Shown here: positions 1-56,757 of the stretch, piece after piece
Numbering within the stretch: the first letter of the stretch is position 1
How the letters are laid out: each line of letters begins with the position of its first letter
NCBI GenBank assembly: GCA_017557185.1
Contig: JAFZAP010000027.1
Location: 1 to 56,757 of the forward strand
Reading direction: 5' to 3'
DNA length: 56,757 nucleotides
DNA from: Prevotella sp.
GTDB taxonomy: Bacteria > Bacteroidota > Bacteroidia > Bacteroidales > Bacteroidaceae
Position numbers and translations under genes: made by a program
Notes under the pieces: generated by a model
The model's database searches: none
Told to the model about the DNA's origin: nothing
Seen by the model: only the letters and a program-made list of their open reading frames with translations

Positions 1-199
1 AAAATAAAATTGTTTTTATTTTGGGAGCTATATACAATTAGACCCTCCGAACTTTTTAGACAAACGAAACAGACGGACAGATGTTTTTTACCCACAGATT
101 CCACTGATGACGCAGATTTTTTTCAACACAAATTCCCGTAAATTATCCGCAAATTTTCATTAATTATTTGTCTGCAAATTTTACGAATTCAGCGAATGA

Positions 200-362
200 A
201 CGAAAGAAATTGAATGATGGAGGGTAGATTCCGCACGCGGAATCATAACGTTTGACAGGTTCGGCACCGACAAACTCGTTTGTCGTGCAGACCCTATCGA
301 ACGTGTGACGATGGTGAGAAACACCATCTCCCCCATCATCCAATTACTTCCGTCTCATTCTT
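200..362. repeat. Palindromic interspersed element, copy 1
   Basis: Imperfect inverted arms of about 25 nt (205-229 and 326-349; the right arm contains CCATCATCCAATTACTTC) enclose smaller hairpins. One is CGACAAAC/GTTTGTCG around 267-284; another is a perfect 7-bp stem GATGGTG/CACCATC at 310-328 with loop AGAAA. The right half matches the element at 1317-1778 closely, so this is a member of an interspersed family. No coding capacity is apparent. Confidence 0.6.
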
Positions 363-797
363 TCTCCGACTCAATGTCTCTCTGTCTAAATTCCTTGATT
401 CCTTCATTCCTTAGAATCATCTAAGATCCGTGGAGAAACTGAGGGGTCAAAAAGTATATAATTACCTTTATTTTTTTCTCTAGCGAAAGTATCTAAAACC
501 GAAGGGTAATCGCATTTCCTGCATTTCCTACACCTGAGCCGCTATGCGAAGTGTAAAGTGCTTCGCACGTGTAAGAACTCAATGGGTTGTCACTCATAAA
601 GCATAGAGTTTTGAGGCATAACTCATAGAGTTTTGACCAAAAACAAGGGCTACGGTCGATGACCTTCGGTTCAATGTGCTTCGCACTGTTCAATGGCCTT
701 CGGCGTTCAAGGCCCTACAGGCGGCTCAATTTTTCACTTTTCACTTTTCACTCTGCACGTAGTGCAGTTGGTGCTACGGGTGCAACTCTTCTGGGAA

Positions 798-980
798 AGC
801 AGTGTCCTAATATAGTGTGCTTTTGCGAAACGTGTGCAGAATCGTGCGGTTTCGCTGCGTTAACGATGGTTAATGTGGCGGGGGGGGAGTGTTTTCGTAT
901 GACTAGAGTAGTGCTTTCGTGTGACCGGAGCAGTGCTTTCGTGTGGCTGGAAGAATGCTCTGAAATGGCTATAGTATTGC
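798..980. repeat. Degenerate 22-nt tandem array (AGTGCT-type core)
   Basis: Roughly nine degenerate units. The equivalent core base falls at 892, 914, 936, 958 and 980, exactly 22 nt apart; earlier units (about 826, 848, 870) are more decayed. The best units read AGTAGTGCTTTCGTG and AGCAGTGCTTTCGTG. The same core type (AGCANTGCT) recurs in the array at 42643-42880. A 22-nt unit is not a multiple of three, so this is not a protein repeat. Confidence 0.65.
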
Positions 981-991
981 CCTAGTTTTGC

Positions 992-1116
992 AAATCAACT
1001 TATTTTAATCAGTAAATTAACTTAATTTGATGAGTAAATTAACTTAATTTGGTAAGTAAAATAACTTAATTTACTGAATAAAATAACTTAATTTACCGAA
1101 CAAATTAAGTTAATTT
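992..1116. repeat. 22-nt-phased array of AAATTAACTTAATTT palindromes
   Basis: Six 15-nt cores start at 992, 1014, 1036, 1058, 1080 and 1102, every one exactly 22 nt after the previous. The consensus core AAATTAA-C-TTAATTT is an odd palindrome (7+1+7). The first core is the most diverged (AAATCAACTTATTTT) and the last has G in the centre. The 7-nt linkers between cores vary (GATGAGT, GGTAAGT, ACTGAAT). The array follows directly on the AGTGCT-type array with nearly the same phase. Confidence 0.85.
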
Positions 1117-1126
1117 ACTTTATCAC

Positions 1127-1157
1127 CTCAATGCTCCAGTATCACCAGAGCATTGAG
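1127..1157. repeat. Perfect 10-bp hairpin after the 22-nt arrays
   Basis: CTCAATGCTC at 1127-1136 and GAGCATTGAG at 1148-1157 are exact reverse complements separated by 11 nt. A run of A follows but no clear T-tract, and there is no gene on either side for it to terminate. The stem contains the GAGCATTG/CAATGCTC core seen in the 22-nt arrays, so it may be a fused or inverted pair of array units. Confidence 0.6.
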
Positions 1158-1316
1158 AAAAACAAATGAGAGGGCTGCTTTTGATGGATGAGATCGTTGT
1201 AAAGACAATCTGAGTAGTAGATTCTTTAAGATTTTAAGACCGCTCGGCTTGCCGCTTGCGTAGTAAAATGGAGCAAGAACTCTTTATTTTACCACAGATT
1301 ACACAGATAACGCAGA

Positions 1317-1778
1317 TTTCTAAGGAACATAGGAATCTAAGGAAAGACATATGAAACAGACGGACATAAGTTTTGCCCACAGATTTCGCAGATTCTCTAA
1401 GGAATGAAGGAATCGGAGGAAACGAATGTCACGAAGGAAATCGGACAATGGAGGGCGATTCCGCGCGCGGAGAGCCTCCCCCCTGCCCGGCCTCCGTCGC
1501 AAATGGGGGATTTGCTCCCCTTTGTGGGGCCGCAGCCACGCCGGTGGCTGCTCTGAAGACCCCAGTCGCCAAGTAGAGGGGTGCTTTACTTCCAGCGTAG
1601 TGCCTCTCTCTGCTGTTTGTCTTAACTTGGCTTCCTCCCTTTTGGGGGGATTAGAGGGGGGCCGCATTTGTCATGACAGCCTCCGTCAGACGTGTAACGA
1701 TGGTGGCAACACCATCTCCTCCATCATCCAATTACTTCCGTATCATTCTTTTCCTTAGATTCCTATGTTCCTTAGAAA
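1317..1778. repeat. MITE-like element with perfect 29-bp terminal inverted repeats
   Basis: Bases 1317-1345 are the exact reverse complement of 1750-1778 (the core of the arm is CTAAGGAACATAGGAATC). Inside lies a second, imperfect inverted pair (about 1435-1460 and 1712-1738) shared with the element at 200-362. A 7-bp stem GATGGTG/CACCATC with GCAA loop sits at 1699-1716. The centre, about 1466-1660, is a GC-richer stretch not present in the first copy. No transposase frame is present, so if mobile it would be non-autonomous. Confidence 0.6.
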
Positions 1779-1978
1779 CATCGGTTTCATTCGTTGAATT
1801 CGAATCATTTGCAGACGAAACTTAAGTTGTTTTATGTTGTTAAAGTTGTTTTTTCCAGAAAATAACATCATGAAGCTAAGTAAGAACGGGGCAAATAGTA
1901 TGTATTTGCAAAAAAAGTAGTAACTTTACACACGAAAACGAGGGGAGGGAGAAATAGAAGTATGTATTGCATTCATAA

Positions 1979-6219
<4,241 letters not shown>

Positions 6220-8021: not shown

Positions 8022-11000
8022 CTACCGACGGAGAATCTTCAGGGTGCGGGTGGTACCATCGGCAAGCACTTCGCGACGAAGGTAGAGGCCTGGTTGCGTG
8101 GGAGCCTGCGTGCCGAGAGCTGTGCCGTCGATAGTGAAATAGGAAACGGCTGCGGTCGGGGTGACGTCCGGCATACCTTCGGCGAACGGCAGAGCAGGCT
8201 GGTCGATAGCGGTGATAAGCTCCTCGACATTGCTGATCTGCACGGGCTCGATACCGGCATTGGTGGGTTTCACACGCTCGATAGTGCCGTCGTCACGGAA
8301 GGTGAGGCGGTCGACGCATACCTCGCGGTGATAGCCGGGGCCGTCGTTGAGATACTGCGGATTGATGCGGTGATAGACAATGTACCAGTCGTCGGTGCCG
8401 GGAACGTTCACTATGGAGTTGTGACCCGTGCCGTAGATGCGGTTGGCAGCATCCTGAATGATGACGATGGGCTGGCGTGCCACTTGGATGGGGCCTGTTG
8501 GCGACTTGCTGGTGCCGTAGGCAACATGATAGTTGGTTGAGCCAGTGTCATCGACCGACCAGAGGAAGTAGTAGAGTCCGTTGCGATAGAACACGTAGGT
8601 ACCCTCGCGGAAGGCATAGTCGGAGAGCGAGCCGCCCTTAGGTGTGATGACATACTCGCTGCCGACGGTGGAAAGCATGTCGTCGGCCAGCAGACGATAA
8701 CAGAGTTGGCCGTTACCATAATAGAGGTAGGACTGTCCGCTGACAGGATCGGTGAAAACATCGGAGTCGATCATCTGTCCGGCCTGCGAGGTGGTGAAGA
8801 GAGGTTGTGAAGCTGCGCGGAACGGTCCCGTGGGATTCTCGCTGACGGCTACGCCGAGTGTCTTCTTGTTATACGAAGGATTCTGGCCGCTGAAGTAGAA
8901 ATAGTAGCGCCACTTGCCACCCACAAACTTCTCCTCGATGCAGGGTGCCCAGGCATTGCCCGTTGTCCACGACACATCGCCTCCGCGCTGCAGGTTGAGG
9001 ATGGTTCCCTCGTTGGTGAAATTCAGCAGGTCGGGCGACGAGAACACGTCGAACGTATAGCCGCCCCACCCTGTGTAGCCATCGGTGGTGGGATAGACAT
9101 AGAAGCGACCCGTCTTGCGCGAGAAGAGCACCTCGGGATCAGCATGGAAGTCGGGCAGCACGGGGTTGCCGACGGCCTCGACGGTGACCAGATAGTAGTT
9201 CACGGGTCCGTTGCTGCTATGAGCGCGTGCTCCAACCGTGTACATCACAGGGCCTTTCGTGAAGTCCACAGGTTGATTCGGGGAGACAACATCGGCCGGC
9301 GACGAGAAGAACTGCGGGTCGAAGGAAGTGAGGTCGGTAGAGGGATCGACGGGCACATAGATTTCAGCGGGGGTCTGTTCGGTATCGACAGCATCGCCAA
9401 TCACGAGTCCTGTCTGACGGATGCGGGGATTGCGAGCACCCGTAATCTTCGGAGCTGCACTGCCGCCAATGGGGAAATAGCGCAGAAGCCGATCAGTCTC
9501 TTCCGCAGTGATGGGGAGGACGGTGCCGTGACGAGGTGTGAAGGCACCACTGGTACGGGTGTTCTGCACGAAAGTGAAGTTGCTCAAGTCCGGACTGGAA
9601 CAGAACTGGTAGTGTCCTGCGGTGTAGCAGTCGTACATGAGTACCCACGAATCCTGATTGATGAGCTTGAAGACACCGGCACCCTCGACAGCCTCGGTGG
9701 TCTGCTGGAGCGTCGATGTAGGCTCCGACCACTGGCTGCCAAGCGGTTCGCCGGGACGTGCGGTGAGGTAACGAGCGGTAACCTTGCAGATGCCGCCCTC
9801 GCCCTCGTTCTTATAGAAGCCGTGATAGAGGGAGTCGCTCTCGTTGTAGACGATGTCCATATCGATGGTGGCCGAGCCGCGGTCGTAGAAATAGATGGGC
9901 TCGCCATCGAGGTCGGTGAAGTCATCGTTGGCGTAACAGTAGAAGTCCTTATCGAAGGGGATTCCATCGCGACTGCCTGTACGCAGCGAGAAGTAGACCA
10001 TGAAGCGTTGTGCCTCGTTGTCCCAAATGGTCTCGGGTGCCCAGACGCGGATGACCTTCTCGAACATCGTGCCGCGATACTTATCGGGGAAGTGCACGGT
10101 GGAGTGAGTCCAATGAACGAGATCGGAGGATTTCATCATGACGATGCCTCGGTTGGAATCCCATCCTTCAGCACAGCGCATGTCGGTGTTGACCATGTAG
10201 AACATGCCGTCGGGACCACGCAGGATGTGAGGATCGCGCACGCCGCGCTTCAAGGCAATGGAGTCGGCAGCCACGACTCGCCGTCCGTTGTTGAGGGGTG
10301 TGAAATTATATCCGTCGTTGGAGATGGCATAGTAGAGATTCTCGTTGTCGTTGGACGGGAAATAGACAAAAAGATAGTTCTGATAGGGCTCGTGCTCGTG
10401 GAGTGTGATGACGAAATCGCGCGTCAGGCGTGCCTGGCCCTTCAGGATTGTGGCAGTAAGCGTGACGTTGCGTTTCTTCCCTTCAGGAAGTTTCAAGACG
10501 CGTCCCTGGTCGGTAATCCACTCGGGTTCGGCCGACTTCCAGAATACCACGGAGCCGTTCTCGGCAACGGTAGGTAATGCGAGGTCTGTATAGACGTTGT
10601 TGAGATGACCGGGAATGGTCAGCAGAGCCGCATCAGCAGCCACTATCTCCTCGTCGGAAAGCTCAGGAAGTACGCCCACAGGGAACTGGCGTTCGGTTGC
10701 CAGCGACGCATATTGCTGGTCGGTGGGCGTGAAGTGGGCGGTCAGGGTGGCAGTAGCAATGGGGTTGCCATGAGCCGGACGCGTGATGTGTCCATCGGCC
10801 GTGATTACACCGTTGTCGCTCGATGACCACTCAATCTTCAGTTCGCGATAGGTAGCAGGCAACTCAACATCCGACTTCAACTGAGTGAGATCGCCAGGCG
10901 AAAACTCCTGTATGTGACGAATAATGCGCAAAGAGTCTTCGTAGGCGTTCAAGCGCTTGGTCAGTTGAATGAGACGTCCTATCTCGGAAGCATTAATGTC

Positions 11001-11747: not shown

Positions 11748-13655
11748 TTACTTGAAGGGCAGATACCAGTTCTGCTGATTGGTCAGGTCGACGACAGGAT
11801 GCTTGTAGGCCAGCTTGTCGGCGAGCCAACGGCTGCCGTAGTCGGCACCATAGGTGGCGGCAGCGTTCTTATGGCGGGCAATACGGCAGAGATCGCCGAA
11901 CCGATTGCCTTCGAAGGCCAGTTCAAGGGCATACTCGTCGCAGATGAGATCCTCAACCACATTGATGAGGTCTTGCTTCTGCCAGGAGGTGATGGTCTCC
12001 ATGACGGGATTGCCTTCCTCGTCGAGCACGGGATTGCCTTCTTCATCGAGTACTTCCTGTTCAATGACCACGGGTTTGATGAAGTCGTCGCCATATTTAG
12101 CATTGAGCTCAGCAACCTTTCTCTCCACCTCCGACTCGAGCTGATAGGGCGAGAAAGCACCCTTGGTGTAGCCGCTGCCATAGGAGTGGATGCCCACATT
12201 GTCGGCAAAGAGCGACACATAATCGCTGGAGAAGAAGGGAATCGTGGTGCGGAGGAACTCCTGTGACTCCTCGGTGAGATACAGGGGATCTGTCGAGAGA
12301 TCGCGGTTGAGACCGTCCTTCAGAATGGCGAAGGCTGCATCGGGATAACCCATACGGTTAATGGCTTCGGCCAAACGGAGGTAGACGGAGGCATTGCGAT
12401 AGACAGGTATGTTGGCACCTTCGAACTTCATCATCTCGTTGAACAGGGAGTCTTCCTTGCTGACATGGGAAGAGAGCGTCGTGTAGCGGCGCAGGTCACC
12501 CAAATCGACCGACTTCACGTTACCGTTGTCAGTAACAGCCGTTGACGGCACATAGTAGTAGTTCTGCTTGGAAGCCAGGTCGAGATAGGACTGCGAGGCG
12601 TCGATTTCGCGCTCTAGGAGATAGAGCGATGAAACCGCTCTGCCACCCGTGACAACATAGGACGTCTCGTTGGTGTAGAAGTCATAGCCGAACAGACGAG
12701 GCAGGTCGGTGGTGAGACCATTCAGATTGTTCACAGCCATCGGCACATAGGTGATCACATCGGAAGGCGTGTTCATCGAGAAGATACCCTCCCATCTCGA
12801 ACTGCTACCTTCAGGAGTGTAATTGATATCGTTAGGCAGTTTGCGAACTATCTCATCTGTGAACGTAGGCTGATTATAGAACCTATTAGCCAGCGCAGCG
12901 TTGTCGCGCAGATAGGTGAAATAGTAGCGGGCAGCCTGAGCATAATCGCCTGTCTCAAGATAGAGATCACCCAATACGAGGTCGACGGGGAACATCATCT
13001 TGGGAGTGTCGACGTACTTCATGACGCCACGATTGGTTTCACCCACTTCAATGTTAGATCCATAGGTAGGTACACGCTGACCCGAGAACTTGGCCAGATC
13101 GGGAGCCAACGCTTCGCAAATGCCAACGATGTCCTTGGTGTCATGCACGGTATTGGCCTCGCTGATGCTGGTGATGGGGTCGGTGTAGAAAGGCACATTG
13201 CCATAGATCTTGGCCAACTGCAGATAGGCCCATGCACGGATGCTGTAGGCCTGCACATACTCTGGGATTGCCACCTTGCGCGAACCTGTGAGCAACGAGG
13301 TGTCGCGATGGGCGATGAAGTAGTTGCAGTTGTTGATGATGCGATAGAACACGTAGGCCGAATCATACTTGTTGGAGGCTGTTGCCGAGAAGTTGGCCAG
13401 CTCGCGCAGGTCGGCTTGGGTGTACTTGTTGACCTGTGTGAGGTCGCCACGCATCTCATTGATGAGCACATACTGATCGATGGCCTGCTGTACTCCCTTG
13501 AGAATACCGAGCGTGTAGAACATCGAGTCGGTCTTCTCGTTGAGTTGCGGGTCGAAGATCTGGCTGTCAGAGTCGGTCTCAAGCATATCCTGACAGGAGG
13601 TTGCCGAGAAGAGCACGCCGCAGAGTGCTACTATGATAAAAATACTCTTTTTCAT
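11748..13655 (-). CDS. SusD/RagB-like outer-membrane glycan-binding lipoprotein (second pair)
   Basis: About 635 residues from MKKSIFIIVALCGVLFSATSC, a lipoprotein signal with the lipid-attachment cysteine; upstream in-frame ATGs at 13670 and 13688 only add Lys-rich residues. SusD hallmarks are the helical TPR-like N-terminal half (YVQAYSIRAWAYLQLAKIYG, GDYAQAARYYFTYL) and the C-terminal EYALELAFEGNRFGDLCRIARH with WYLPFK at the end. It should sit on the SusC-like barrel encoded just upstream and capture glycan. A short acidic duplicated insert near residues 560-580 (EVLDEEGNPVLDEEGNPVMETI in outline) looks like a small tandem duplication. It is followed by the attenuator and the GH43 enzyme. 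Confidence 0.93.
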   Translation of the reverse strand: MKKSIFIIVALCGVLFSATSCQDMLETDSDSQIFDPQLNEKTDSMFYTLGILKGVQQAIDQYVLINEMRGDLTQVNKYTQADLRELANFSATASNKYDSAYVFYRIINNCNYFIAHRDTSLLTGSRKVAIPEYVQAYSIRAWAYLQLAKIYGNVPFYTDPITSISEANTVHDTKDIVGICEALAPDLAKFSGQRVPTYGSNIEVGETNRGVMKYVDTPKMMFPVDLVLGDLYLETGDYAQAARYYFTYLRDNAALANRFYNQPTFTDEIVRKLPNDINYTPEGSSSRWEGIFSMNTPSDVITYVPMAVNNLNGLTTDLPRLFGYDFYTNETSYVVTGGRAVSSLYLLEREIDASQSYLDLASKQNYYYVPSTAVTDNGNVKSVDLGDLRRYTTLSSHVSKEDSLFNEMMKFEGANIPVYRNASVYLRLAEAINRMGYPDAAFAILKDGLNRDLSTDPLYLTEESQEFLRTTIPFFSSDYVSLFADNVGIHSYGSGYTKGAFSPYQLESEVERKVAELNAKYGDDFIKPVVIEQEVLDEEGNPVLDEEGNPVMETITSWQKQDLINVVEDLICDEYALELAFEGNRFGDLCRIARHKNAAATYGADYGSRWLADKLAYKHPVVDLTNQQNWYLPFK

Positions 13656-13701
13656 ATTCTTTATCTTCATTAACTTCTTTAACTTCATTAATTTCCAAAA
13701 G

Positions 13702-16700
13702 TTAGAGATTGATCCTCAATCCAAGTGAGAAGGTGCGGCTGAGAGGCACGTTACCTGCATCTATGCCCTGATAGAGCACGCTGTTGGCAACCGAGAACTC
13801 AGGATCACTACCCAGATAACGGGTGACGGTGAAGAGGTTGTTGGCCTCGGCCCACACCTGCAGACCCTGCAACCAAGAGAGGCTCACAGGCACCTTGTAG
13901 TTCAGGCGGAGAGTCTTCAAACGCAGATAGCTGCCGTCTTCGATCCAGCGGCTGCTGAAGCAGCTATTACCCATAGGATCGCCGTAGCCGATACGGGGGA
14001 CGTCGGTGACCTGTCCCTCATAGCGCCAGCGGTTGGCAACGGCCGTGGTCTGGTTGTAGAAGTTGCTGCCACCCTCAAGGATGCTACGCTGATAGTTGAA
14101 GACATCGTTGCCCAAAGAGTAGTTGAAGCCCAGCGAGAGGGTGAAGTTCTTCCACATGACGTTGGCGAAGATGTTACCATAGATGTCGGGATTGGGATTA
14201 CCGATTATGGTCTTGTCCTCTACGCCAATCTTACCATCGCCATTGAGGTCGGCATAGTGAGCATCGCCGGCATGGAAATACTGGCGAGCGCCCGTATTGT
14301 CGAGAAGGTAGAGATAGCCATCACTGCCTGCTGCTTTGGCTTCGGCATCGGTAGCAAAGACACCCTCGAAGGAGTATCCATAGAAGGAACCTGCCGACTG
14401 ACCAACGATGGTGGCGACATTGTTGGCACCATAGATAGACGACGTGTAGCCCTGAGCGTTGGCCTTGCCACCCACGTAGATCGGACTGTTGTTAGGCAGC
14501 GACTTAATCTTGTTCACGTAGTGTCCCATGGATGCACCAACCTCAACATTGAAGTCCTTGGTAACAACAGGCTTGGCGGTCACAGTGAGTTCGAAACCGG
14601 TGTTGTCCATCGAACCGCCATTCGACCAATAATTGTTGATACCAGCCACAGGGTTCTCGAAGCTCTTCAATGTGAGGAGGTTCGTGGTGTGGTTGAAGAA
14701 GTAGTCGAAGTCGACACCCAGACGATTATTCAGCCAATAGGACTTGAAGCCCAGGTTCAGACGATTGGTCTTCTCGAAGGTAATTTCGTCATTACCGATG
14801 TTGTTGAGCTGAGCTGCCGTCATGTTACGCAGGTACTTCAGCACTCCGAACGACGTGCGGGCAGCATAATTGCTGATGTCGTCATTACCGGAGATATCGT
14901 AGCCGGCCTTGAGGAGGAAGTAGTTCAGTGCGTCGGTCTTCGGGAACCAAGCCTCGTTGGTAACAGCCCAGCCAAGTTGCAAGCTCGGGAAGATACCCCA
15001 CTTCACGCCTGCGAGTTTCAGTCCGCTAGAGTTCTCACCGAAGCGGCTGCTACTCTCGGCAGCAATCGTGGCCTGAACGAAGTAGCGGTTGCGGAAGTTG
15101 TAGTCGAGATTTGCATACCACGTAAGACTCTTCCAAGCATCGGCAACACCTTCCACATTGATATACATGCTCGAGTTGATGTTGGGCTGCTTGTCGTTGG
15201 CACCGGAGTTGCGCTGGCCAGTAGGCGTGTTGTCGTCGAAAGTGAACGATGACAGACGGAAGCCGCCATAAGCATCGACGAAGTGCTTACCAAGCTGCTT
15301 CGTGAACTGCAGGCGTGTGTCGCTGAAGACGCTGATCTCCTTGTTGAACATCGTGCTGGTGAGCGTCTGCACGCGACCGATACCGTCGATGAGGAACATG
15401 GGCATACCGCCATTGGGACGATAATAGCGCTGCGATACGCGGTCGAGGGTGTAGGAGAAGGTTTCGCTGAGCGTGAGGTACTGGTTGAACTCATAGCGCG
15501 GAGCGATAACAGCATTGAAGTTGGTCATCTCCACACGGTTCTTGTTGATGGCGCTACCATTGTAGAGTAGAGCCGTGGGGTTACCCAGCGTCAGATCGTC
15601 ATCGAGCTCGGTAAGGAAGTCGTCAGCCTCATAGAGCGTGGACGTAAGCTTACCGGTTACGATACTGTAGGTGTAAGGATTCAAGAACGGCGACTTGATG
15701 AGCGAAAGCAACGTGGGTGATGACACGGGACCTTCGGAGAAGTCCTCAGGAGCACCATTGTCGAAAACGTTGCGATTGATCTTTGCATACGACATATCAA
15801 AGCGTGTAAAGAGTTTCTCCAACACGTTGATATCAGTATTAAAGCGCACGTTCAAGCGATTGAAGTCGTTCTTGCGGGCAGTACTCTGAGCCGTGGTGTA
15901 ACCAAGCGAAAGGTTATACATACCCACATCATCACCACCCTGCACGTTGATGTTATAGTTCTGGGTGACGGCATTGTGATAGACCTCTTCGCTCCAATCG
16001 GTGTTGTTGTGGTAGGTGTTATAATAATACTTGCTCTGGTCGTTGCTAAGGAACTTCAAATCGCCCTTGAAGGAGTTGATGTCGGGATAGGTTCCGAGCA
16101 TCTCGGTAGCATAGAGACGATACTGAGAGGCATCCATCATCTCCGGCAGTCGGCCCATCATGACAACGCCTGCACCAATGTTGGCATCGATGCGGGTAGC
16201 CATAGAATGACCACGCTTGGTGGAGATGAGGATGACACCATTAGCACCCTTGGCACCATAGAGAGCCGTACCGTTCTTCATGACCTGAACCTTCTCGATA
16301 TCGGAAGGATTGATGTTCAGGAAGAGGTTGGTATAGTCGCCATAGTGGAGAGTGGAACGCGTCTCCTGCATGTCACGAATGACACCATCAACAACGATGA
16401 GGGGTTGTGCATTGGCGTTGAGCGAGCTGAGACCGCGAATGAACATGGCCGAGCCGTAGCCAGGACCGCCCGAGCGGTTGATGGCATGGACATCGGCACC
16501 AAGGTTGTTTTCGATTTCGGTCTCGGCAGAATAGGCCGTAGTGTTGTTGACCAGTGCCTGAGTGACAGCAGCCACATTGGTGCCATTCTCATACATGGTC
16601 TTGAACTTATCGGCAATCATCGTGATGTGGAGCTCCTTGTCGCCCGTTCCGATGCCTACCTGCTGACTAAGATATCGCGGTGCATGCACAAACAACGCTG

Positions 16701-49778: not shown

Positions 49779-50549
49779 TCAGTTTGTTGATTTCTTCTTC
49801 GTCCTTGAACCCGTCGACTTCTTCTTGGAAGTAGCAGTTTTCTTCTTTGCTGTTGAGGTCGACGATTTCTTGGCGGTTGTCGACTTCTTCGTAGTAGTCG
49901 ACTTCTTGGCGGTTGAAGTGCTTTTCTTCTTCGCCGTCGTCGAGGAAGACTTCTTTGCCGTCGTGGCTTTTTTAGTAGAAGTCTTCTTCGTTGTCGTCGC
50001 CTTTTTCGTGGTCGTGCTCTTCTTGCTACTCGTCTTCGTCATCTGCTCGATGGTGTCACGGGCCTGCGTCAACAAGTCATTGAAGCTGCACGACTTCACC
50101 TGTGTGGAAAGGAACCACACCACCACGATCACACCGAGGAGGAACTTCAGTAAGCGCTTCCACTGGGCAACAGTCAGCTTACCAATCTTGTTCGTTCCAT
50201 TCTTCGATGACTTCGATGATTTCTTGCCCTTCGACGAACGGGCGGCGCGGTCGGCTTCGCGCTGCTGACGCTGGCGCTCTTTCTCGGCAGCCGCTTCCAA
50301 CTTCGGACGTACCACCTCTTCATAGCGCTGTTCGCTATAGACATCAAAGTTCGTCGCCAGACGTGCTTCTTCGTCGTCGGCAATCTGTACACCCAGTTGC
50401 TGTCGGCAGGCCTCAGCAATCTCATGACGGAACGAAAGCCCCGTCGACTGTTCCACTACACGCTCACTACTGATAGTCACCGTAGCACCTTCTACAATAT
50501 CACCATAGGCTGCACGTGCAACGGCTTTATAACGATATTCTTCCATCAT
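49779..50549 (-). CDS. Membrane protein with histone-H1-like Lys/Ser/Thr tail
   Basis: 256 residues (starts MM; the second Met is equally possible). Residues 1-60 form a compact folded segment (YKAVARAAYGDIVEGATVTI), and about 85-125 is a charged helix rich in Arg/Gln/Glu then Lys/Ser. One transmembrane helix lies at about residues 135-152 (LKFLLGVIVVVWFLSTQV). Residues about 170-256 are almost only Lys, Thr, Ser and Ala, in KKSTTT/AKKSS repeats. Such tails occur in bacterial H1-like proteins (Hc1/BpH3 type) and can bind nucleic acid, but here the tail lies beyond a membrane helix. Both Lys-rich flanks make topology ambiguous. I recognise no family. It faces the GH109 gene across a bidirectional terminator. 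Confidence 0.8.
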   Translation of the reverse strand: MMEEYRYKAVARAAYGDIVEGATVTISSERVVEQSTGLSFRHEIAEACRQQLGVQIADDEEARLATNFDVYSEQRYEEVVRPKLEAAAEKERQRQQREADRAARSSKGKKSSKSSKNGTNKIGKLTVAQWKRLLKFLLGVIVVVWFLSTQVKSCSFNDLLTQARDTIEQMTKTSSKKSTTTKKATTTKKTSTKKATTAKKSSSTTAKKKSTSTAKKSTTTKKSTTAKKSSTSTAKKKTATSKKKSTGSRTKKKSTN

Positions 50550-50687: not shown

Positions 50688-50717
50688 CACCCGCAAACGG
50701 ATGTTCCGTTATGCTTT

Positions 50718-50791
50718 GGACTTGTAGCTCAGTTGGTTAGAGCAACAGACTCATAATCTGGAGGTCGTAGGTTCAAGCCCTACCTGGTCCA
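50718..50791 (+). tRNA. tRNA with CAU anticodon (Met elongator or Ile2)
   Basis: 74 nt with the full cloverleaf. Acceptor arms are GGACTTG/CTGGTCC (G-U at 5-68, one U-U at 6-67). The D arm is GCTC/GAGC with AGTTGGTTA. The anticodon loop is CTCATAA, and the T arm is GTAGG-TTCAAGC-CCTAC. The discriminator is A and CCA is not encoded. The D-arm wording resembles elongator tRNA-Met, but a CAU anticodon is also used by tRNA-Ile2, so identity needs comparison with the other CAU tRNAs of the genome. Confidence 0.92.
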
Positions 50792-50802
50792 CGTTGAAAA
50801 TC

Positions 50803-51035: not shown

Positions 51036-51060
51036 ATTTCCGTAATTTTTTTACGGAAAT
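51036..51060. promoter_or_regulatory. Perfect palindrome, candidate operator
   Basis: ATTTCCGTAA (51036-51045) and TTACGGAAAT (51051-51060) are exact reverse complements separated by five T. It lies 14 nt upstream of the -7 element TATCTTTG of the ATPase/TOPRIM genes, where a repressor or activator site would be expected. It could alternatively be a weak terminator. Confidence 0.55.
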
Positions 51061-51074
51061 TGAAAACTTTATTG

Positions 51075-51082
51075 TATCTTTG
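51075..51082 (+). promoter_or_regulatory. Promoter -7 element of the ATPase/TOPRIM/hsd genes
   Basis: TATCTTTG, a full TAnnTTTG match, 26 nt before the ATPase start. The -33 region falls inside the palindrome at 51036-51060 and has no standard TTTG, compatible with a regulated promoter. Confidence 0.6.
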
Positions 51083-51108: not shown

Positions 51109-52209
51109 ATGCTCATCAAATTTGCCGTAAAAAACTTCCGTGGTTTTGCTGAAAGAATAGAATGGGACTTATCACATCCCAGCAATTACTCTTTCAACAC
51201 ATATGCTGTTAAAGATGGAGTAATTAAGAATGGTATTATCTATGGACCTAATGGTTCTGGTAAAACAAACTTTAGCGTGGCACTATTCGATATAGTGAAT
51301 CATCTGACTCAGAAATCCAAGAAGCCTGACTACTATCAGAATTTTGTCTATGGAGGAGATTCCACTTTGAATGTGGATTTCGAATATACCTTTAAATTCA
51401 ACGAGCAAACTATCGAATATAAGTATTCCAAGAATGTATTTGGGGCGCTTGTAAAGGAGGCGTTGATTGTTGATGGTGCGTCAGTGTTCAAGCGGAGAAT
51501 AGACACACTGGAACTCGATGAGAAACAATTCCCAATAAATCCAGATGCAAAGCGGAACCTGCAGATGAATGCCAACAGCATCTCTATAGTGAATTATCTG
51601 CTGACATCATATCCTCTTGCCAAAGACCATTACTTAATCGAAATGCGCAACTTTGTTGATTCAATGCTGTGGTTCAGATGTCTAAAGGTTAATGAATACA
51701 TGGGATTTGATAATGTTGCCACAATCCTTGACGAATATATCATTAAAAATAGGTTAGTGAAGGACTTTGCAGATTTCCTACGGAAAATTAGTGGACAAAA
51801 GTTTGAGTTTGTTCAGTCAAGGACAACGGATAAGATTCTGTTCTGCAAGATTGGGAATGGGGTTATTGCTTTTGACTTGATAGCATCAACAGGAACACAA
51901 TCGCTGAAGTTGCTGTACTTTTGGCTAAAGAAAATGAACGAAGCGTCTTTCGTCTTTATCGATGAATTCGATGCATTCTACCATTTCAAGCTGGCCTTTG
52001 AGGTATGCAAACAACTATTCAACCTCAACTGCCAGGTCTTCACGTCATCGCATAACACATATCTGATGACGAACGATTTGTTGCGTCCAGACTGCAACTT
52101 CATTTTGCAGAACAATAAGATTAAGCCACTGCATGCTTGCACAGAGAAAGAACTGCGATTCGGGCATAATATTGAGAAACTATTCCGCGCTGGAGCTTTT
52201 GAAGTATGA
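51109..52209 (+). CDS. AAA (OLD/RloA-like, AAA_15-type) ATPase
   Basis: 366 residues. The N-terminus MLIKFAVKNFRGF is the usual start of SMC/OLD-type ABC ATPases. Walker A is GPNGSGKT (residues 46-53). A signature-like ASTGTQSLKLLYF is near residues 258-270, Walker B with catalytic Glu is FVFIDEFDAF (281-290), and a switch histidine lies in FTSSHNTYLMTN (about 315). The end, IEKLFRAGAFEV, resembles RloA/AAA_15 proteins. There is no TOPRIM domain fused at the C-terminus; a TOPRIM-like protein is instead encoded by the next gene, overlapping by 4 nt (ATGA). Such ATPase plus effector pairs are known in phage defence (PARIS AriA/AriB; RloA/RloB). Codon and base use are more AT-rich than in the genes before the tRNA. 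A role in defence is inference from context. Confidence 0.88.
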   Translation: MLIKFAVKNFRGFAERIEWDLSHPSNYSFNTYAVKDGVIKNGIIYGPNGSGKTNFSVALFDIVNHLTQKSKKPDYYQNFVYGGDSTLNVDFEYTFKFNEQTIEYKYSKNVFGALVKEALIVDGASVFKRRIDTLELDEKQFPINPDAKRNLQMNANSISIVNYLLTSYPLAKDHYLIEMRNFVDSMLWFRCLKVNEYMGFDNVATILDEYIIKNRLVKDFADFLRKISGQKFEFVQSRTTDKILFCKIGNGVIAFDLIASTGTQSLKLLYFWLKKMNEASFVFIDEFDAFYHFKLAFEVCKQLFNLNCQVFTSSHNTYLMTNDLLRPDCNFILQNNKIKPLHACTEKELRFGHNIEKLFRAGAFEV

Positions 52210-53009
52210 TACTGTTTGTGTTTGAAGGCAAGGACGATAAGACTTATTTCGAGTCTATCAAACGGCTTTTCTTCCCAGAGAAGCTCGACACCTTCGTGTG
52301 CACGTACAATAGTAATATATACTCACTCTATACCAAGCTCATGGCGCATGATGCTCTCAATGGAACACTGGAAGTTGACACAGTATCTGTGCTTAAAGAG
52401 ATTCTCCTTGAAAAGGGTGACGAAACGTTGAAAGATATTAGAGAGGACGAGGTATCTGAAATATACCTTTTTTTCGATTACGATTTCCAAGAAAAGGCCA
52501 GGACTCTTGAAGAGAACAACATGAGGCTATCAGAAATGCTGGACTTCTTTACGGATGAAACAGCGAATGGTAAGTTGTATATCAATTACCCGATGGTAGA
52601 GTCGCTCCGCTATACAAAAAAGTTACCCGACTACGACTATTGGACATATACGGTGACACGTCAACAATGCCAGAAGGTTAGATTCAAACACCAAGTTCAT
52701 GAATTTTCTTTCTATGGAGGAAATTTGGAATATATCATTCTCACCATCAAACCAGCTGACGACGAGACGAAAGTACAAGAGAAGATTGATAGTGCAAAGA
52801 CGAATTGGAAGCATCTTGTTGCTATGAATGTCAGTAAGGTAAACTACATCTGTAACGATAAAAATGAAGTTCCTGATGAATCCGATAGTCAGCTGGCAGT
52901 CTTTAGCAATCAACTCTCCAAATATGTCGAGACGGATGAATGTAAGGTTGCTATACTTAATGCATTCCCCATATTTCTGTTCGACTACTTTGGAAGAAAG
53001 ATAATATAG
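52206..53009 (+). CDS. TOPRIM-like partner of the AAA ATPase
   Basis: 267 residues, start overlapping the ATPase stop by 4 nt. The N-terminal strand MILFVFEGKDDKTYFESI has the Glu-Gly of a TOPRIM domain (Glu7). A later strand ends in the DxD motif IYLFFDYDFQEK (Asp91, Asp93), and NYPMVESLRY (about residues 126-136) is a stretch I associate with TOPRIM/RloB-type proteins. The layout fits a single-domain TOPRIM nuclease such as AriB (DUF4435) of PARIS, or an RloB-like protein; I cannot decide between them. It ends 19 nt before hsdM, so ATPase, this gene and the restriction genes are probably co-transcribed. Function inferred: toxic nuclease or effector held by the ATPase. Confidence 0.78.
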   Translation: MILFVFEGKDDKTYFESIKRLFFPEKLDTFVCTYNSNIYSLYTKLMAHDALNGTLEVDTVSVLKEILLEKGDETLKDIREDEVSEIYLFFDYDFQEKARTLEENNMRLSEMLDFFTDETANGKLYINYPMVESLRYTKKLPDYDYWTYTVTRQQCQKVRFKHQVHEFSFYGGNLEYIILTIKPADDETKVQEKIDSAKTNWKHLVAMNVSKVNYICNDKNEVPDESDSQLAVFSNQLSKYVETDECKVAILNAFPIFLFDYFGRKII

Positions 53010-53028: not shown

Positions 53029-54564
53029 ATGGCAAAGAAAACAAAAATAAAGACATCAAGCCTCTTTGATGCACCAAAGACCGCACAGGAACTGAAATTG
53101 GAAGGAGTACAGAATTTGTATAACTTCCTGTTCGAGGCATGTAATATTCTGCGCGGGCCGGTGAGCCAGGACAACTTCAAGGACTATATAACGCCAATTC
53201 TCTACTACAAGCGTATCTCTGACGTGTACGACGAAGAGACCGAGGCGGCTTTGGAAGAAAGCGGTGGTGACATGGAATATGCCACACTACCGGAACAGCA
53301 TCGTTTTGTCATCCCTGACGACTGCCATTGGAAGGATGTGCGTGAACGCACAGAAAACCTTGGCTCTGCTATTGTGGGTGCCATGCGAGGCATAGAGCTG
53401 GCTAACCCCGATACGCTTTATGGTGTGCTCAGTATGTTTAGTGCTCAGAAATGGACTGACAAGAAGAATCTTTCCGACGGCAAGATACGTGACCTGATAG
53501 AACACCTGAGCACAAAGAAACTTGGGAACAAAGACTACCCCACCGACCTGATGGGTGATGCCTATGAGATTCTGCTGAAGAAGTTTGCTGATGACTCGAA
53601 GGCAAAAGCAGGCGAGTTTTATACTCCTCGCTCTGTTGTGCAACTGCTTGTTCGCATCCTTGACCCAAAGCCAGGAGAAAGTGTTTACGATCCAGCCTGT
53701 GGTTCTGGCGGTATGCTCATTGAGGCTGTCCATCACATGAATCACAGTAGCCTCTGTTGTGGCAACATTTTCGGGCAGGAGAAGAATGTGGTCAACTCGG
53801 CAATTGCCAAGATGAATCTTTTCCTTCATGGTGCCAGCGATTTCAATATCATGCAGGGTGACACACTTCGCAACCCAAAGATTTTGCAAGGTGGAGAAGT
53901 TGCCAAGTTCGACTGTGTGATTGCTAATCCTCCGTTCTCACTGGAGAAATGGGGCTCTACAGAATGGTCATCTGATAAGTATGGACGTAACATCTGGGGC
54001 ACACCCAGCGACTCCTGCGGTGATTATGCTTGGATTCAGCACATGATAGCATCGATGGCTCCAGGCAATGGTCGCATGGCTGTGGTAATGCCACAAGGTG
54101 TACTCTTCCGCGGTAACGAAGAAGGACGTATTCGAGAGAAGTTGGTGAAGAGTGACATGGTAGAAGCTGTTGTCACTTTGGGCGATAAACTCTTCTATGG
54201 CACAGGGCTTTCACCGTGCTTCCTCATTATCCGCAAAATGAAACCCGCTGCACACAGTGCTCGTGTGCTGATGGTTGACGGCACGAAGATACTGACACAG
54301 AAACGCGCTCAGAACATTCTTGAACAGAAAGATGTTGATCGTCTCTTCGAATTGTATGAGAATTACGAGAATATGGAAGACTTCTCTCAGGTAGTTACAC
54401 TTGAAGAGATTGCCGCTAAGGGCTACGACCTGTCGCCCAACAAATATGTGCAGTACCACCGTGAAGCTATTAAACCCTACGCAGAGGTGTTTGCTGAGTT
54501 TAAGGCTGCCTATGAGGAAGTAAAGCTTCGCGAGGCAGAATTTAAGAGAATCATAAACGCATAG
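53029..54564 (+). CDS. hsdM: Type I restriction-modification N6-adenine methylase subunit (HsdM 1)
   Basis: 511 residues. The N-terminal HsdM helical domain (FLFEACNILRGPVSQDNFKDYITPILYYKRISDVYDE in outline) lies at about residues 30-150. The methylase domain follows: GEFYTPRSVVQLLVRILDPKPGE, SAM motif I VYDPACGSGGM (about 218-228), GQEKNVVNSAIAKMNLFLHG, catalytic motif IV VIANPPFS (about 298-305). It methylates adenine in the bipartite target set by HsdS. It begins with a short Lys-rich leader and is followed after 4 nt by a second, different HsdM. No HsdR is in the window; it may lie beyond hsdS. Confidence 0.95.
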   Translation: MAKKTKIKTSSLFDAPKTAQELKLEGVQNLYNFLFEACNILRGPVSQDNFKDYITPILYYKRISDVYDEETEAALEESGGDMEYATLPEQHRFVIPDDCHWKDVRERTENLGSAIVGAMRGIELANPDTLYGVLSMFSAQKWTDKKNLSDGKIRDLIEHLSTKKLGNKDYPTDLMGDAYEILLKKFADDSKAKAGEFYTPRSVVQLLVRILDPKPGESVYDPACGSGGMLIEAVHHMNHSSLCCGNIFGQEKNVVNSAIAKMNLFLHGASDFNIMQGDTLRNPKILQGGEVAKFDCVIANPPFSLEKWGSTEWSSDKYGRNIWGTPSDSCGDYAWIQHMIASMAPGNGRMAVVMPQGVLFRGNEEGRIREKLVKSDMVEAVVTLGDKLFYGTGLSPCFLIIRKMKPAAHSARVLMVDGTKILTQKRAQNILEQKDVDRLFELYENYENMEDFSQVVTLEEIAAKGYDLSPNKYVQYHREAIKPYAEVFAEFKAAYEEVKLREAEFKRIINA

Positions 54565-54568
54565 TCAG

Positions 54569-56107
54569 ATGGAAGAGCATAAGAATACAAAATATATAGG
54601 AGCAGACGAACAGATCTCCCTCGACGATTTGAAATCGTTTCTATGGGGAGCTGCCACCCGTTTGCGCGGACAGATAGACGCTGCTGGGTATAAGGAATAC
54701 ATCTTCCCACTTCTGTTCTTCAAACGCATTAGTGATGTCTATGACGAACAGTTTCAAGATTTTGTGTGTGAAGGTGGCGAGGATTATGCCCACATGCAGG
54801 CAGAAGAATTGGCCATCCGCATTCCTGAAGGTGCACATTGGAATGACGTGCGTGAGGTGACCGAGAATGTAGGTCAGCGACTTGTGGAAGCCTTCATAGC
54901 CATAGAACAGGCAAACCCTGGCGAAGAGGCAGACGGTCGCATCATCGGTGGACTTGATGGTATATTTGGCCCGAAAGATGGTTGGACGAACAAGGCTAAG
55001 ATGCCCGACCACATCATCACTTCGCTGATTGAAGATTTCTCTCGCTATAATCTCAGTCTTGCCCATTGTCCGGCAGACGAGATGGGACAGGCATACGAAT
55101 ACCTTGTGGGTAAGTTTGCTGACGATGCCGGCAATACTGCTCAGGAGTTCTATACCAACCGCACAGTGGTTACGTTGATGGCAGAGATACTGCAACCAAA
55201 GCCTGATGAGAGCATTTATGACCCCACCTGTGGCTCTGGTGGTATGCTTGTGAAGTGCCTTGACTTCCTACGACAGAAAGGAGAACCTTGGCAAGGAGTA
55301 AAGGTGTTCGGACAGGAAATCAATGCACTGACCGCTTCCATTGCCCGAATGAATCTTTACCTCAATGGTGTGGAGGATTTCAGTATTGTTCGTGAAGATA
55401 CCCTTGCACATCCTGCCTTCGTAGATGGAAGTAAGTTGCGCAAGTTCGATATAGTGTTGGCTAATCCACCATATAGCATCAGTGAGTGGAATCGATCTGC
55501 TTTCGAAAACGACAAATGGGGACGAAACATGTGGGGCACACCGCCACAAGGACGTGCGGACTATGCTTTCATTCAACATATCATTGCATCTATGAATGAG
55601 AATACTGGAAGATGTGCGATTCTATTACCTCATGGTATCTTATTCCGCAACGAAGAGATGGAAGTACGCAAAGGACTTGTTTTGTCCGATAAGATAGAAG
55701 CGGTCATTGGACTTGGTCCTAACCTTTTCTATAATGCACCAATGGAAGCTTGTATCCTCATTTGTAACAATAATAAGGCTAAGGAACTAAAGAATAAGGT
55801 TATCTTTATCAATGCCAAGTATGAGGTAACACGAAAAAATGCGGAAAGTTATCTTGAAGATGTACACATTCAGAAAATAAAGGACGCATACAGTAATGTG
55901 AATGATATTGCTGATTTCAAACGTTTGGTTGACATTGAAGAAATTGAAAAGAACCGTTTCGATCTTAGCATACAAAAATATGTTTACATTAGTGAGATAA
56001 ACAAAGCGGACTTTGTTTCTGTAGAAGACGCTTTAGTATCCTGGAAAGAACAGCACTCATTATTTGTGAACTCTGTAGAAACATTAATAGGAATGTTAGG
56101 CTCATGA
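54569..56107 (+). CDS. hsdM: Second type I methylase subunit (HsdM 2)
   Basis: 512 residues. Same domain order as its neighbour but clearly diverged: LKSFLWGAATRLRGQIDAAGYKEYIFPLLFFKRISDVYDE (in outline) at residues about 14-55, QEFYTNRTVVTLMAEILQPKPDE, motif I IYDPTCGSGGM (about 215-225), FGQEINALTASIARMNLYLNG, motif IV VLANPPYS (about 295-302). Both catalytic motifs are intact, so it is not a decayed duplicate. The stop overlaps the hsdS start by 4 nt (ATGA), which ties this copy most closely to the specificity subunit. The C-terminal helical segment (YSNVNDIADFKRLVDIEEIEKN) is standard. Two HsdM with one HsdS suggests either a heteromeric M2S complex or two systems sharing parts. Confidence 0.95.
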   Translation: MEEHKNTKYIGADEQISLDDLKSFLWGAATRLRGQIDAAGYKEYIFPLLFFKRISDVYDEQFQDFVCEGGEDYAHMQAEELAIRIPEGAHWNDVREVTENVGQRLVEAFIAIEQANPGEEADGRIIGGLDGIFGPKDGWTNKAKMPDHIITSLIEDFSRYNLSLAHCPADEMGQAYEYLVGKFADDAGNTAQEFYTNRTVVTLMAEILQPKPDESIYDPTCGSGGMLVKCLDFLRQKGEPWQGVKVFGQEINALTASIARMNLYLNGVEDFSIVREDTLAHPAFVDGSKLRKFDIVLANPPYSISEWNRSAFENDKWGRNMWGTPPQGRADYAFIQHIIASMNENTGRCAILLPHGILFRNEEMEVRKGLVLSDKIEAVIGLGPNLFYNAPMEACILICNNNKAKELKNKVIFINAKYEVTRKNAESYLEDVHIQKIKDAYSNVNDIADFKRLVDIEEIEKNRFDLSIQKYVYISEINKADFVSVEDALVSWKEQHSLFVNSVETLIGMLGS

Positions 56108-56757
56108 AATATAGATTTGACCAAATAGCTTTCAATAGCACAGCAAAGAAAACTCCAACAGAATCGGACAAGGAACATTATATTGGTTTGGAGCACATTG
56201 ACAGTGAGTGCCTTGAGATTTCTCGATGGGGTTCCGAAGTTGCCCCTATAGGAGAGAAGTTGATAATGAAAAAGGGGGATGTGCTATTCGGTAAAAGGCG
56301 TGCATATCAAAGGAAACTGGCAATAGCTCCCTTTGACGGAATCTTCTCCGCTCATGGAATGGTACTACGTCCCAATGAGGAGATTGTTGACAAGGACTTT
56401 TTCCCATTTTTCATGAGTTCTGATATATTCATGGAAAGGGCCGTGCAGATTTCAGTGGGAGGGCTATCTCCAACTATCAACTGGAAAGACCTAAGAGAAC
56501 AAGAGTTTGACCTTCCGCCTCTTGCAGAGCAAAAGGTTCTTGCCGAAAAAATATGGGCAGCATATCGTCTCAAAGAGTCATACAAGAAGCTCCTTGCGGC
56601 TACTGAAGAAATGGTGAAATCGCAATTTATCGAGATGTTTGGGAGTGTGGATGATAATCCAAAGTCCTACGATATTAAAAAGGTTGGTGATTTTGCTGAA
56701 TGTTTTGCTGGCGCAACCCCCAGTACCAAGATTCCGTCTTATTGGGATAATGGAAAT
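56104..56757 (+). CDS. hsdS: Type I restriction specificity subunit HsdS, cut by window end
   Basis: 218 codons are present without a stop; the gene continues beyond the window. The first target-recognition domain is complete (about residues 1-145: MKYRFDQIAFNSTAKKTP, YIGLEHIDSECLEISRW, KGDVLFGKRRAYQRKLAIA, ISVGGLSPTINWKDLREQEF). The central conserved helix follows (LPPLAEQKVLAEKIWAAYRLKESYKKL in outline, about 150-190), with SQFIEMFGS as the usual end. The second target-recognition domain begins at YDIKKVGDFAECFAGATPSTKIP. HsdS determines the bipartite DNA sequence recognised by the M and R subunits. The start ATG overlaps the HsdM 2 stop (ATGA). Confidence 0.94.
   Translation, partial: MKYRFDQIAFNSTAKKTPTESDKEHYIGLEHIDSECLEISRWGSEVAPIGEKLIMKKGDVLFGKRRAYQRKLAIAPFDGIFSAHGMVLRPNEEIVDKDFFPFFMSSDIFMERAVQISVGGLSPTINWKDLREQEFDLPPLAEQKVLAEKIWAAYRLKESYKKLLAATEEMVKSQFIEMFGSVDDNPKSYDIKKVGDFAECFAGATPSTKIPSYWDNGN

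Follow-up and report, generated by a model that had tools for sequence, protein, structure and literature searches.

The window analysed here is a 56,757-nt stretch of Prevotella sp. (contig JAFZAP010000027.1, assembly GCA_017557185.1), near the end of which two genes, here called A and B, stand at the head of a type I restriction operon. As the first-pass annotation had stated, the two genes overlap: open reading frame (ORF) A (51109–52209, 366 aa) shares ATGA with ORF B (52206–53009, 267 aa). Upstream of A lies a 17-bp palindrome, which was absent from that annotation, as were the second tandem hsdM and the occurrence of the pair outside restriction-modification (RM) loci. The unit comprises the following features:

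51040–51056, strandless: palindrome CCGTAATTTTTTTACGG (CCGTA-W7-TACGG), putative operator, conserved upstream of A
51075–51082, + strand: Bacteroidota-type -7 box TATCTTTG, 18 nt past the palindrome, by sequence reading
51109–52209, + strand: gene A (PDC-M12A), Rad50/SMC/PtuA/OLD-type ABC ATPase by profile and structural comparison
51244–51267, + strand: Walker A of A, GPNGSGKT (residues 46–53), from the alignment of A sequences
51289–51918, + strand: variable middle segment of A (residues 61–270), candidate sensor, from identity comparisons between loci
51949–51972, + strand: Walker B of A, FVFIDEFD (residues 281–288), from the same alignment
52051–52053, + strand: His315 of A, switch His
52206–53009, + strand: gene B (PDC-M12B), TOPRIM-like putative nuclease effector, by profile and motif conservation
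52224–52226, + strand: Glu7 of B, predicted TOPRIM catalytic Glu
52476–52484, + strand: DYD of B (Asp91, Asp93), predicted TOPRIM DxD
52599–52601, + strand: Glu132 of B, in YPMVE, third acidic position, present in 74 of 76 aligned B sequences

Pfam AAA_21 matched protein A at 7.8e-14 (52.9 bits against a cut-off of 27). Among 85 aligned A sequences, G46, N48, G51, K52, D285, D288 and H315 were invariant, and G49 and E286 were conserved in at least 90%; the Walker motifs and the switch His recognized by the first-pass annotation were confirmed at these places. The structural comparison showed an ABC head fold common to A, the OLD family, the retron-Eco8 OLD protein and the Septu/retron PtuA. 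Judged by its sequence, A is an ABC-class ATPase. TOPRIM domains are defined by a conserved Glu and a DxD motif, and both were present and conserved in B, which begins with E7-G8-K-D-D and carries D91-Y-D93 further in. E7, G8 and D91 were invariant in the 76 aligned B sequences, position 93 was D in 72 and E in four, and position 11 was E in 71 and D in five, so that the EGKDD and DYD motifs noted earlier stood, with their key acidic residues conserved. B matched nothing relevant among the PDB sequences and gave no Foldseek match at E ≤ 0.001; OLD TOPRIM domains were among its weak structural matches. B is probably a TOPRIM-like putative nuclease. In all 72 loci common to both alignments, the window included, A and B overlapped or were separated by at most 2 nt, with the B starts chosen by script.

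The PADLOC profiles of PDC-M12 covered both adjacent genes: PDLC04426 (PDC-M12A) matched residues 1–365 of A at 1.7e-130, and PDLC04430 (PDC-M12B) matched residues 1–266 of B at 6.5e-69. These profiles matched all 85 aligned A and all 76 aligned B sequences. By profile, then, the pair is a member of PDC-M12, an already catalogued phage defence candidate (PDC). PDC-M12 is a catalogue entry, and no paper naming it was found in the literature searched. Published work is cited here from excerpts of the papers; according to one of them, most PDCs of the core defensome are unvalidated (PMC12988326). To the PDC-M12 entry the present work adds the palindrome, a life as cargo of plasmids and filamentous phages, and exchange of the middle segment of A.

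PARIS, whose mechanism is described in PMC12409363 and PMC9122126, resembles the pair in placing an ABC ATPase beside a TOPRIM protein. The PARIS detection rule uses an AAA_15 or AAA_21 ATPase (PMC9122126), and A exceeds the AAA_21 cut-off; the A profile also matched AriA. The order of acidic motifs in B (E, DxD, E) resembled that in five DUF4435 proteins, aligned from five of six DUF4435 loci (L170, a fusion, was left out). However, hhalign of B against these five gave a probability of 1.6, and the palindrome described below was found within one mismatch in none of the six loci. The first-pass annotation could not place B in DUF4435 or RloB, and neither was among the two Pfam matches of B at E ≤ 1 (we take the RloB accession to be PF13707). 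Its further proposal, a possible new PARIS subtype, was ruled out: both genes match PDC-M12, B has no PF14491 (DUF4435) match at E ≤ 1, and its whole genome has none. The remark that the proteins are shorter than those of PARIS held for A (AriA has 464 aa). Among other systems, OLD proteins differ in that ATPase and TOPRIM are fused in one chain, and PtuA in that its partner is the HNH protein PtuB (PMC12409363). OLD-ABC/TOPRIM dyads have been described as backup effectors of BREX-type systems (PMC12839542).

The palindrome is the sole CCGTAA-N5-TTACGG site in its own genome. As CCGTA-N7-TACGG it was sought within 200 nt upstream of A in 95 homologous loci, namely 79 of 80 genome loci, 10 viral loci and six from plasmids or relatives; the window was not counted, L038 was omitted for want of upstream sequence, and the start of A in L040, where its frame is interrupted, was set by hand at 9996. 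The site was exact in 79 loci, within one mismatch in 88 and within two in 90. The corresponding counts were 0, 0 and 71 for 1,900 shuffled upstream sequences, and 0, 3 and 36 for 1,016 upstream regions of other genes in the same loci. When the loci were clustered at 60% A identity, the majority was exact in 30 of 38 clusters and within one mismatch in 34. Core positions 7–10 were A or T in all 35 cluster representatives and the flanks were near background; these representatives were the best per cluster with at most two mismatches (35 of 38 clusters), which inflates the information in the arms and leaves core and flanks unselected. Two-mismatch forms occurred in L023, L090 and the 4-kb Escherichia plasmid; the exceptions were L075, with three mismatches, and L070, L097, L098 and L099, with four to five. 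The exact site was also present in L088, L089 and L091, three contigs with archaeal titles, and in L019, a filamentous phage of Vibrio.

Among 399 genomes of the family, 13 had the exact 17-mer, in single copy each and in all 13 right ahead of A (recognized in 11 by hidden Markov model and in two by the first 15 and 4 residues at a contig end); some of these genomes overlap with the 95 loci. A backward control pattern of the 17-mer was not found in the same 399 genomes. Looser patterns are by themselves non-specific. CCGTAA-N5-TTACGG turned up 11 times, in 10 of 60 relatives, with four sites ahead of A, which have A/T-run cores, and seven elsewhere; CCGTA-W7-TACGG occurred in 22 of 345 genomes of the phylum, and of these 22 loci that of the window alone adjoins A. 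Of the viral sequences, 69 stretches contained the exact 17-mer; five of these had A within 160 nt, and the remainder of the 69, many within ORFs, look like background. The T8 form occurred in 12 viral stretches.

Bacteroidota promoters have the consensus TAnnTTTG and a -33 position. In 35 of 41 loci (hand-picked, mostly with Bacteroidota titles, the pattern TA-N2-3-TTTG being allowed) a -7-like box lay 14–19 nt past the palindrome, which therefore covers the -33 position, and this overlap suggests repression. In L067 and L013 the exact palindrome was 136 nt ahead of the start of A with a -7-like box close behind, and hence the leader is longer. Placement on the -33 element would suit a host regulator too, and the palindrome might instead be read by a host factor or serve as a site of recombination or insertion. 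We consider this quite improbable: the site is single in the genome, its spacing to the box is mostly held, it stays with the pair in several phyla and on contigs with archaeal titles, and with 13 of 13 exact family matches ahead of A there were no empty sites. A terminator or att site was likewise not favoured, given the promoter spacing and the lack of an empty site among these matches.

No recurrent regulator gene was seen upstream of the pair when the upstream genes were inspected by eye. As the site is kept in very different hosts, occurs once in each family genome that has the exact form, and has no such companion gene, the simplest candidates for its reader are A, B or a complex of both. 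The presence of this palindrome at the promoter of most copies suggests autoregulation by the pair. In eight loci A was retained and B was missing or broken (L027, L035, L066, L070, L073, L076 and L113, and also L038), absence being taken as no tblastn match at 1e-3 within 2.2 kb. The first seven have an intact A, and the site was exact in six of them and not in L070, which weakly favours A as its reader. Loci with A and without intact B also hint that B may be costly; the scan was made with A and is hence biased. The 17-mer forms searched were not found in the literature covered, and in the papers searched, as far as their excerpts go, neither was autoregulation of such a pair through its own site. 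There is a likeness to type I RM islands controlled by RptR, where a palindromic operator also heads a defence operon tied to type I RM; there a separate repressor binds TAGCTA (PMC12255303), whereas the 17-bp site here has no accompanying regulator gene that we could see.

Autoregulation is also a trait of toxin–antitoxin systems, and the pair has the two-gene order of AbiL. A toxin B neutralised by A, with the palindrome as a classical operator, was weighed. The AbiLi profile matched A at 3.5e-36, and all 85 aligned A sequences at 1e-20 or better; the AbiLii profile matched the B of the window at 0.0014, and AbiLii of Fusobacterium nucleatum is toxic in E. coli (PMC3985639). However, PDC-M12A matched A far better, as PDC-M12B did B; at 1e-5 AbiLii was listed for none of the 76 B sequences. 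In the same study AbiLi failed to counteract AbiLii, and AbiEii alone was toxic among the lactococcal proteins tested, hence lactococcal AbiLii was not (PMC3985639). Deletion of either PARIS gene is non-toxic (PMC9122126), and L040 has an intact B behind its interrupted A frame. The architecture may be called PARIS-like or AbiL-like by analogy, and a toxin–antitoxin pair seems a possible but rather doubtful account of it.

The pair is distributed over many lineages and replicons. B matches were found in eight of 199 genomes of a relatives search, counting its own genome and one 33-residue fragment (G003), and the distribution is therefore sporadic. Contigs with A (the best 80 of at least 180 relatives were kept) bore titles of Bacteroidota, Bacillota, Spirochaetes, Proteobacteria, a planctomycete, Collinsella and archaea, and many were metagenome-assembled genomes. 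Among plasmid records 14 had A and 15 had B; the pair was carried on 4-kb Escherichia plasmids and on plasmids of Raoultella, Pectobacterium and Acinetobacter. A near-identity DNA search found it in nine of 5,426 E. coli genomes, with every copy plasmid-borne. It was also present in three Vibrio phage records; the one inspected belongs to Tubulavirales, the filamentous phages, and its depositor had annotated A as Paris_II AAA_21. By these occurrences, and by its presence at many chromosomal sites, the pair is a mobile unit that heads restriction operons just sometimes. A second A-like ATPase ORF was matched by the A profile upstream of the pair in two loci (L071:7104–8186, 232 bits; L080:9084–9872, 34 bits). 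In L012 and L033 a remnant ORF starting MNDKE.GY.YIL, truncated in both, stands right behind B, and is presumably derived from a T5orf172/GIY-YIG gene.

Parts of the pair appear to have separate histories. Between the window and L040, DNA identity was 91% in B and 92% in codons 331–360 of A, whereas over residues 61–240 of A the two proteins shared 37–57% identity, and matching codons there agreed at 36–64% of third positions (11–17 codons per bin). L012 and L033 had the same contrast between the ends and the middle of A at the protein level; their synonymous sites were diverged throughout, so that the case for exchange comes from L040. Among 181 locus pairs with 60–75% A identity, B identity spanned 28–81%, incongruence being judged from identities and not from trees. 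These patterns suit a separate exchange of the candidate sensor segment and the effector.

The genes around the unit in the window are as follows:

50718–50792, + strand: tRNA-Met (CAT), upstream of the ATPase–TOPRIM unit, by ARAGORN
53029–54564, + strand: hsdM1, co-directional, 19 nt beyond the stop of B
54569–56107, + strand: hsdM2, second tandem full-length HsdM, by Pfam profile search
56104–56757, + strand: hsdS, incomplete, cut by the contig end

The first-pass annotation had placed the end of B 19 nt ahead of hsdM, as confirmed here, and proposed that an ATPase and a TOPRIM-like protein guard the restriction enzyme; motifs and profiles upheld the pair, but not, as a rule, a guard dedicated to this type I enzyme. 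Such a PARIS-type guard, in which A would unleash B on sensing anti-restriction proteins that inactivate the hsd products, draws on the PARIS-like architecture and on Ocr as the PARIS trigger (PMC9122126). It also draws on operon order: L174, from another genus of the same family, repeats the order pair-hsdM-hsdM-hsdS, with identities to the window of 97.5% in A, 93% in B, 93% in hsdM1 and 77% in hsdM2, and other RM systems adjoin the pair in L040 and L033. However, among the first co-directional genes downstream of the pair in 29 loci (32 ORFs minus those of L068, L084, L089 and L090, plus hsdM1 of the window), only two encode type I methyltransferases (window and L040), and a type III methyltransferase (L033) and a GmrSD gene (L043) bring the RM total to four. 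Two others, which sequence assigns to L060 and L109, were terminase small subunits, and the remaining families were diverse, with mutS, glycosidases and oxidoreductases among the matches listed (25 of 47 and 25 of 57 families). The pair also lives without RM genes on the 4-kb plasmids and a filamentous phage, and B is not DUF4435. By sequence context the association with RM is real in the lineage of the window and recurrent with other RM systems, but not general; a guard dedicated to RM was ruled out as a general rule, and we regard a guard of this kind as unlikely.

DNA homology between the window and L174 starts at 50716 (blastn), and L174 has the tRNA-Met too. The tandem of two distinct full-length hsdM genes ahead of one hsdS (53029–56107) recurs there. 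Behind hsdM2, L174 has an hsdS, a recombinase gene and another hsdS, and at a greater distance an hsdR that encodes 975 aa; its region 98–4492, where two hsdS enclose one tyrosine-recombinase gene and one gene lacking a Pfam match, resembles shufflable specificity loci. Behind the pair in L040, hsdM and hsdS are separated by a RhuM/Fic gene (13444–14430). Contig C72 was ruled out as the continuation of the window, as it carries a different type I locus and not the remainder of the window hsdS. That locus (L137, G000:C72) had HSDR_N and Methylase_S matches and an hsdM-like ORF seen by eye; we take a 219-aa ORF between its S and R genes to encode a four-helix-bundle protein. On the - strand of the window, 49779–50549 encodes a protein with a long, repetitive C-terminal tail rich in Lys, Thr and Ser.

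Here, with a probability of roughly 0.55, we propose that the pair is an autonomous, mobile and autoregulated two-gene ATPase–TOPRIM abortive-infection module (PDC-M12) with its own putative operator, A's middle segment as phage sensor and B as nuclease. A, B or their complex, most likely A, would bind the palindrome as a dimer and repress its own promoter. The variable middle segment of A would sense a phage product, and an ATP-driven rearrangement of A would free or activate B. B, as a TOPRIM nuclease acting on RNA, tRNA or DNA, would then arrest the cell, as AriA and AriB do in PARIS. As the unit heads the double-hsdM type I operon with a gap of 19 nt, the same operator probably controls the restriction genes, and in this genome the palindrome would govern them also. 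A bolder version, which we hold to be a long shot, is that A reads the palindrome sequence-specifically with a surface that doubles as phage sensor: DNA-mimicking or DNA-binding phage proteins displacing A would at once set the TOPRIM effector free and lift repression of the operon, restriction genes included. If that were true, this would be a defence system with its own operator as the bait, conserved in hosts as distant as archaea and in filamentous phages.

ATPase–TOPRIM pairs are a widespread type of defence, and for few of them are the trigger and the control on standby known. What is new here is the palindrome accompanying such a pair; as it does so across phyla and domains and without a visible regulator gene, the question of control becomes directly testable. 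The copy on the 4-kb E. coli plasmid, although it has a degenerate palindrome, could serve as a small model of the pair for the laboratory. If A or B reads the palindrome, the pair would have a DNA-recognition function that is not described for PARIS in the excerpts of the literature cited, and the restriction genes behind the pair would be wired to that control.
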